Shown: positions 60,757 to 64,000 of the stretch, in pieces | Layout of the letters: the number at the start of each line of letters is the position of its first letter | Position numbering within the stretch: the stretch's first letter is position 1 | NCBI GenBank assembly: GCA_020433455.1 | Contig: JAGRCP010000023.1 | Location: 1 to 64,000 of the forward strand | From: Caldilineaceae bacterium | Lineage (GTDB): Bacteria > Chloroflexota > Anaerolineae > Caldilineales > Caldilineaceae | DNA: 64,000 nt | Direction of reading: 5' to 3' | Translations under genes and position numbers: made by a program | Notes under the pieces: model-generated | Databases searched by the model: none | What the model was told of the DNA's origin: nothing | What the model saw: only the letters and a program-made list of their open reading frames with translations

Positions 60757-60790
60757 AAAGAGGGCGCCAATTTTTCGGCGCCCTCTTGCG
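60757..60790. terminator. Bidirectional terminator between ltaE and rpsA
   Basis: Hairpin AAGAGGGCGCC / GGCGCCCTCTT with an 8-nt loop, A-rich on the left side, between convergent genes. Confidence 0.88.
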
Positions 60791-62164: not shown

Positions 62165-62543
62165 AATCTCCGCTTGTCGGCTGATAGTGAATAGTGAAAT
62201 GATGAATAAAGGGGTACGGCAAACATAAATGTTAGTAGCCTACCTTAGTATACCATGAGATTGATTACTTTATTGGTTGGGGTGCGCACTTTTTTCTGAC
62301 GGCCGCGACATGGACAAAAGGGGCATCGTCTAATATTATAGGCATCTCTTGGGAGATTCGTCAATCTCTGGAAATGTATGACAGCAATCAGCGGTTGACC
62401 CAAGAAGGAAAAGACATTTCCAAGCGATTGATTAAGGAGAGACAACGCTGTTGTTTGGCCCGTTGTCTTCGGTTTGCTTCAGTAATACGAAAAGTCTGTG
62501 AAAGGAGTTGCGATCGATTTAACATAAACAAACGGGAAAGAAA
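62165..62543. other. Divergent leader between rpsA and the glmS ribozyme
   Basis: About 380 nt without a supported gene. On the minus strand a -10-like TATACT (AGTATA at 62247-62252 on plus) about 85 nt before rpsA is a weak promoter candidate. The plus-strand promoter for the glmS transcript should be in this stretch; no convincing hexamer pair was found. Confidence 0.45.
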
Positions 62544-62795
62544 GCGCATGGCCCAATGCAGGGCGAAGTTCGCCGCATTGGGTGACGAGGAAGGGGTTTC
62601 CGGTTATCGTACCGGACTAACCGGCGTCAATTGACGCCGGGAAAATCGACTTATCAGCGGATGCCCCCTGGTCGCTTCCACCGACTTGATCCGAAACGAT
62701 CTTCCGTTTTGGAGTAATCTTTCCCCACTCATCTCCTTGGATAAGCTGGCGTTGAAAGCCGTCCGGTAACGGACGGGACAAAGGCGTGCAGCAGT
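62544..62795 (+). ncRNA. glmS ribozyme (GlcN6P-activated self-cleaving riboswitch)
   Basis: Cleavage is expected between A62543 and the GCGC at 62544-62547. P2 is CCCAATGC (62552-62559) pairing with GCATTGGG (62575-62582), closed by an inner GGCG/CGCC hairpin. The near-invariant core TGACGAGG follows at 62583-62590, then AGGGG (62592-62596) pairing with CCCCT (62665-62669), with ATCGACTTATCAGCGGATG inside, close to the consensus TATCGA...TCGGCGGATG. P3 is TGGTCG/CGACTTG (62669-62688). A P4.1-like stem GTCCG/CGGAC (62761-62774) is followed by ACAAAGG. It lies on the same strand upstream of glmS. By family knowledge GlcN6P triggers cleavage and lowers glmS mRNA. The 3' limit is approximate. Confidence 0.85.
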
Positions 62796-62823
62796 GGAAT
62801 CGAATTGATCCGAATAGCAGACT

Positions 62824-62909
62824 CAGTGATGCCCGAAGCGGGCGGACGCGGCTGATGTGCGTACATCAATAGTGCGTATATCAAGCGGCTGCACCCGCCT
62901 GACTCACTG
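62824..62909 (+). other. Second structured segment in the glmS leader
   Basis: CAGTGA (62824-62829) pairs with TCACTG (62904-62909) and GGCGG (62841-62845) with CCGCC (62895-62899), enclosing further small inverted repeats such as GATGTGCGTACATC. It lies between the ribozyme and the glmS start. It is not recognised as a known riboswitch or terminator. From 62910 to the glmS start nothing else was identified except the ribosome site. Confidence 0.45.
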
Positions 62910-63074
62910 TCCATACGTTTGGAACCCATGCGGTCCGTTATTAAAACGTGATTTCCATGCATGGCGGAGCGTTCCTTCACGTATCGCGGTTCAAATATTC
63001 ACGTGGACTGCATCAGCCAACTGCATGAAATTCGGATGAACCACTCTTTTTCTGTAACGAATGGAGGAAACTCT

Positions 63075-64000
<926 letters not shown>

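Follow-up and report, generated by a model that had tools for sequence, protein, structure and literature searches.

A glmS ribozyme of enlarged build predicted upstream of glmS in a Caldilineaceae bacterium

Is the structured RNA in front of glmS in a Caldilineaceae bacterium a glmS ribozyme, and how is it built? The question is raised by a preliminary description of a 64,000-nucleotide stretch of the genome (the window), which placed such an element at 62544-62795 and named the host, correctly, as a probable member of the Chloroflexota.

Identity of the element and its place before glmS

A cmscan search of the window gave a single Rfam hit, a match to RF00234 (glmS ribozyme) at 62532-62802 on the + strand, with 49.3 bits where the gathering score is 37 (E = 1.2e-9 in a 4-kb search and 2e-8 for the whole window) and covering model positions 1-167 of 167. 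The preliminary description had named the lack of a significant RF00234 hit as the outcome that would speak against its call; the hit found is significant. The RNA has a minimum free energy (MFE) of -113.6 kcal/mol (z = -4.18), and none of 200 shuffled sequences folded equally well. Its catalytic core and the gene downstream were read as follows, with the cut marked by an arrow.

62543-62544, + strand: predicted scissile phosphate between A-1 and G1 (Rfam alignment; A↓GCG kept in aligned relatives)
62552-62582, + strand: P1 hairpin (both-side changes in 7/7 P1 pairs)
62584-62588, + strand: GACGA, with A62585 (Bsu A37), C62586 (C38), G62587 (Bsu G39, the catalytic guanine) and A62588 (A40); invariant in alignment A1, numbering after PMC11602151
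62586-62588, + strand: P2.1 5' strand, within GACGA
62593-62596, + strand: P2 5' strand GGGG (P2 pairs covary)
62646-62648, + strand: P2.1 3' strand UCG (UCG, loop ACUUAU and CAGCGG in canonical spacing)
62664-62667, + strand: P2 3' strand CCCC (P2 pairs covary)
63075-64000, + strand: glmS coding sequence, continuing past the window's end to about 64931 of the contig (Pfam GATase_6; TIGR01135, 777 bits)

The core residues are invariant over the 48 diverse relatives of alignment A1, as are the C-G, G-C and A-U pairs of P2.1 (62586-62588 with 62646-62648; 48/48). The catalytic stretch known from glmS ribozymes, Bsu A37, C38, G39 and A40 with C54 and G55 (PMC11602151), is intact in the window element. 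The landmarks lie where the preliminary description had put them: A62543↓G62544CGC at the cut, GACGAGG at 62584-62590, GGGG at 62593-62596 pairing with CCCC at 62664-62667, GCGGAUG at 62657-62663, and GACAAAGG at 62777-62784. By standard naming, its "P2 with inner hairpin" corresponds to P1. The location that it gave holds, but not the end, since P3.1 needs 62794-62799 and the element thus reaches about 62802. Every glmS ribozyme feature that can be tested in sequence was found in the element, which on this footing is a real glmS ribozyme, the observation being confirmed and the earlier interpretation supported.

The element lies on the correct strand before glmS, as had been claimed. The protein begins MCGIVGY... 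at the ATG at 63075, 272 nt beyond the ribozyme, with a Shine-Dalgarno (SD)-like GGAGG at 63064-63068. The 5.25-Mb genome holds one RF00234 element and one full-length GlmS (777 bits), and the ribozyme precedes that very glmS; an RNase J homologue is also encoded (585 bits, cut-off 400). The spacer at 62803-63074 is unusually long and structured (z = -3.47) and contains an extended hairpin at about 62838-62900. The GC-rich hairpin region at 62818-62920 has no repeat elsewhere in the genome, no sequence similarity was evident between the spacer and those of relatives, each of which has its own strong stem, and a promoter scan gave nothing above chance.

Further observations concern the surroundings. 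The stretch CGACTTGATCCGAA (62682-62695) recurs as CGAATTGATCCGAA (62801-62814) just past the ribozyme, and ATTCGGATGAA (63030-63040), near the glmS SD, is complementary to this repeat, so that alternative pairing is possible. Farther upstream, a hairpin at 60758-60787 between two convergent genes resembles a bidirectional terminator and gave a weak, non-significant CsrC hit.

A two-hairpin insertion, a shifted P2.2 and a leader clamp

The landmarks had been recognized, but a lineage-specific inserted domain, which makes up some 45 nt of the element as claimed, went unnoticed, and a shift in the P2.2 register and a helix named P0 here were likewise overlooked. The insertion lies in J2/2.1.

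62597-62645, + strand: inserted domain in J2/2.1, made of UU, hairpin 1 (62599-62616), linker CUAA, hairpin 2 (62621-62640) and GAAAA (bimodal J2/2.1 length; covariation)

The length of J2/2.1 is bimodal among the 115 parsed elements, being either 8-12 or 46-116 nt, and the longer segments follow the consensus GGUUC-hairpin-CUAAC-hairpin-GGAAAAUCG. In alignment A1, both-side changes were seen in 6/6 counted pairs of hairpin 1 (96.9% of cells paired) and in 4/4 of hairpin 2 (98.4%). For the whole structure, 93.8% of cells were paired, compared with 71.1% after shuffling and 34.8-44.8% with partners slid. The modest RF00234 score is probably due to the absence of this insertion from the Rfam model, whose alignment puts most of the extra length into two unaligned gaps. 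We rejected the Rfam placement of the 52-nt gap (after GUUUCC-G): the UCG-N6-CxGCGG spacing is constant, which sets the P2.1 3' strand at 62646-62648, with the insertion lying 5' of this strand. The insertion adjoins the GlcN6P-contact adenosine, A62645 just 5' of the P2.1 UCG, which we take to correspond to the ligand-contact A of the Tte and B. anthracis structures.

The pairing at the cut itself also departs from the textbook form.

62544-62550, + strand: P2.2 5' strand GCGCAUG, with C2, G3, C4, U6 and G7 predicted to pair with 62655-62659 and A5 predicted to bulge
62655-62659, + strand: P2.2 3' strand CAGCG, followed by G62660 (Bsu G67) (relatives' alignment and spacing)

Pair 6-53 (columns 15-148) is formed in 44/48 insertion-type rows, while the textbook pair 5-53 (columns 14-148) is formed in 11/48; the shifted P2.2 combines four invariant or near-invariant pairs with U6-A53 or U6-G53 in 44/48. 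The window has C4-A5-U6 opposite A53, and position 5-53 would be an A.A mismatch without the shifted register. A5 is thus probably bulged in the window element and U6 paired with A53, and the minority of relatives with A5A6, A5C6 or A5G6 may have A.A at 5-53. Mutational rescue in the glmS core had implied alternative P2.2 registers (Andreasson 2020, PMC7125110). The Chloroflexota shifts resemble these in that the bulge is moved from nt 6 toward the centre of P2.2 and the pairing compensated, but they are natural and fixed by lineage, with the bulge at nt 5, or at nt 4 in a subclass found at glnA.

The remaining domains, and the helix that joins one of them to the leader, are these.

62534-62541, + strand: P0 5' strand GGGAAAGA, in the leader directly upstream of the cut (8-bp perfect complement to 62718-62725; MFE fold; class covariation)
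62670-62686, + strand: P3 hairpin, with the P3.1 5' strand UUCCAC (62676-62681) in its loop (direct sequence reading)
62690-62713, + strand: extra hairpin within the P3 extension, found among members of the window's family (MFE fold; P0 strand offset)
62718-62725, + strand: P0 3' strand UCUUUCCC (MFE fold; class-wide pairing)
62745-62792, + strand: P4/P4.1, with a GUAA tetraloop (62766-62769) and the IL4 purines UUGAAA (62752-62757) and GACAAAG (62777-62783) (Rfam alignment; IL4 purine role taken from PMC11602151)
62794-62799, + strand: P3.1 3' strand GUGGAA (6-bp complement of 62676-62681)

The P3/P3.1 pseudoknot and the P4 features (UUCCAC/GUGGAA, UUGAAA/GACAAAG and the GUAA loop) are present in the window; across relatives, a covariation test of P3.1 gave 6.7 vs 6.3, with mis-anchored segments included. 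Throughout the class, leaders at about -10 to -3 from the cut complement a pyrimidine-rich stretch of the P3 extension, the offset of the P0 3' strand being about 41-45 in several family members vs about 15-18 elsewhere. Over 69 distinct leaders, in which relatedness was only partly removed, the longest Watson-Crick run averaged 6.55 with the leader's own partner and 5.16 when partners were swapped (2000 permutations, maximum 5.65). The signal persists in leaders that have no GGGAAA (6.08 vs 4.93, maximum 5.37), and the same swap test found no such pairing in the non-insertion group (4.28 vs 4.25) or in the other insertion group (3.75 vs 4.02). Compensated variants, such as GGAGAAGCA/UGCUUCUCC, GGGATGTT/GACATCCC with one G-U, and AGGGGAT/ATCCCCT, argue for genuine pairing despite the relatedness in the permutation test. 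The 5' cleavage product would probably be held by P0, as its complementarity suggests. Textbook glmS ribozymes require almost nothing 5' of A-1, so a helix that retains the 5' product is unexpected.

Distribution in the Chloroflexota and copies away from glmS

The preliminary description held the class to be best known from Firmicutes, with fewer examples elsewhere, which was too modest. Matches to RF00234 occur in 125/400 Chloroflexota genomes (111 above the cut-off), and GlmS is encoded downstream of 125 of the 133 anchored elements, at a median distance of 123 nt. A covariance model built from 48 insertion-type relatives (R1) matches 250/396 genomes of the window's class and, within its family, 20/46 genomes and 13/17 genera; the window element was in the training set, so that its Rfam score is independent evidence and its R1 score is not. 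Standard Rfam scans miss many members, and the class is probably spread more widely than present counts suggest. A full-text literature search that covered few subscription papers found no report of Chloroflexota glmS variants.

The insertion-type elements examined come from the window's class and from a second Chloroflexota group, to which Roseiflexus and Chloroflexaceae belong; in the remaining Chloroflexota, J2/2.1 is of the short form. A pattern specific to the insertion, run over 84,980 species genomes, matched at least 118 stretches; among the matches listed, nearly all are Chloroflexota or Anaerolineae, and two are metagenome-assembled genomes under other names (L271, L288), possibly through an error of binning or naming. 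McCown, Roth and Breaker reportedly described, in 2011 (RNA 17:728), Deinococcus-Thermus glmS variants with additional stems inside the catalytic core, which are a possible counterpart of the insertion.

Several members of the class carry a second ribozyme copy away from glmS. The largest set has the core A↓GCG[G/A]CUG and comprises 36 elements in related Chloroflexota genomes, of which 31 have a glutamine synthetase (Pfam Gln-synt_C) in reach, either directly or past ada-like and EamA transporter genes. As for the other five, three show an ada(-eamA) start at the edge of the view, the fourth lies before glutamate synthase, and the fifth before a gene judged by eye to be MOSC-like.

Loci with the A↓GCG[G/A]CUG core, upstream of glnA or ada-eamA-glnA: L205, L208, L215-L221, L223, L225, L229, L230, L235, L237-L242, L056, L059, L068, L069, L074 and others

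Among the parsed elements, none with this core stands directly before glmS, those being GCGC, and none turned up in the genome or the family of the window. The GCGG start of L227 was rejected as an artefact of the model start, the true start being GCGC. At L074 (genome G311) two copies lie about 2 kb apart, one before glnA and the next before glmS further downstream. In this subclass nt 4 must bulge for C5-G54 and U6-A53 to pair, and many members have (U/C)ACGAGG in place of GACGAGG and UCGGAU in place of UCGA. With a model built from glnA-type elements (R2), most of these score at least 107 bits, a few with disrupted 5' parts 82-90, glmS-type elements about 90 or less, and the window 43. As a separate observation, glnA-type leaders (L215-L243) have CUCCCUUCC in the P3 extension, matched in several by GGAAGGG further downstream, which suggests an extra long-range pairing.

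Copies with the GCGC core precede glutamate synthase at L197 and L198 (PF01645 for L198), and another lies upstream of a glutamate synthase-like gene at L224; others precede DegT/StrS sugar aminotransferase genes (L035, L081) or an FAD/Fe-S oxidase gene (L190). At L032 (ribozyme 1501-1736), ribozyme and glmS are separated by a gene, within about 1.3 kb downstream of the ribozyme, for a 402-aa protein that combines a GTPase (MMR_HSR1) region with a SIS domain, and at L366 glmS is about 1.6 kb away. McCown, Roth and Breaker are said to have found, in 2011, all but two of 463 glmS ribozymes in glmS mRNAs. No report of glmS ribozymes in glnA mRNAs was found, as judged by titles and abstracts, in a full-text search that covered few subscription papers. 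The nitrogen-assimilation subclass in relatives is a more surprising lead than the window element itself.

Predicted action, alternative readings and meaning

From the sequence, structure, covariation and gene context observed, we infer that the element is very probably a GlcN6P-responsive glmS ribozyme in the glmS 5' leader with a build specific to Chloroflexota, namely the J2/2.1 insertion and a P0 clamp found across the class. GlcN6P would bind beside the double-pseudoknot core (P2, P2.1, P2.2) and act as cofactor for cleavage at A62543↓G62544; the downstream product, with its 5'-OH, would presumably be degraded by RNase J, and this decay would lower GlmS and hence GlcN6P. Decay by RNase J is, to our knowledge, known from B. 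subtilis but not from Chloroflexota. P0 would clamp the P3 extension onto the leader 5' of the cut, probably stabilizing the folded RNA and retaining the 5' product. RNase J1 has been described as degrading the coding RNA once a glmS ribozyme has cleaved (PMC10594590).

The element shares with RF00234 ribozymes of the B. subtilis, B. anthracis and T. tengcongensis type the cleavage dinucleotide, GACGA with the UCG of P2.1, the P2/P2.2 double pseudoknot, P1, P3, P3.1, P4 with a GNRA-type loop and IL4 purines, and the site upstream of glmS. Unlike them, it has the two-hairpin J2/2.1 domain of about 45 nt, the A5-bulged P2.2 with U6-A53, an extended P3 with an extra hairpin, and a P0 helix formed from the leader 5' of the cut.

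These departures could be taken to mean that the RNA has kept the fold but no longer cleaves, and serves merely to sense GlcN6P as an ordinary riboswitch or to stabilize the mRNA by its structure, since an insertion beside the ligand-contact adenosine or a clamped leader could slow cleavage. This is quite improbable: the aligned relatives retain A-1, G1, GACGA, UCG and GCGG, a pattern not easily accounted for unless catalysis is under selection, and no clear alternative expression platform was found before the SD. The distinct core and different regulon of the glnA subclass, on the other hand, raise the thought that the glmS fold uses a different amine cofactor, at least in that subclass. We consider this highly improbable, as nothing computational points to another ligand, and the window element precedes glmS and has the GCGC core, with which the same cofactor is expected. 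A chance resemblance, or an unrelated structured leader, could draw on nothing except the moderate bit score, and is a negligible prospect already refuted by both E values, the correct gene and strand, the class-wide conservation, the covariation and the z-score of the fold.

With a GlcN6P-responsive glmS ribozyme as the preferred reading, we lean toward a history in which a Chloroflexota branch gained a ligand-adjacent core domain and a leader clamp, and its P2.2-shifted subclass was recruited to glnA operons, with further copies at genes for glutamate synthase and sugar aminotransferases. Amino-sugar supply would in this way be coupled with nitrogen assimilation, and the glnA subclass may differ in kinetics or cofactor. 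According to one review (PMC9971707), no riboswitch class other than the glmS ribozyme regulates sugar metabolism by sensing a modified sugar, and the ribozyme has been described as controlling glmS (PMC9971707, PMC2258182). The enlarged Chloroflexota form indicates that the ligand-binding core tolerates a whole domain inserted next to the cofactor, and its natural P2.2 register shift was only predicted by the mutational data of 2020 (PMC7125110). Cultured Bellilinea caldifistulae apparently has both a glmS and a glnA copy, a natural pair for comparing cofactor specificity. Through the glnA-associated subclass, the ribozyme would come to regulate nitrogen assimilation, a logical pairing given that glutamine is the substrate of GlmS.
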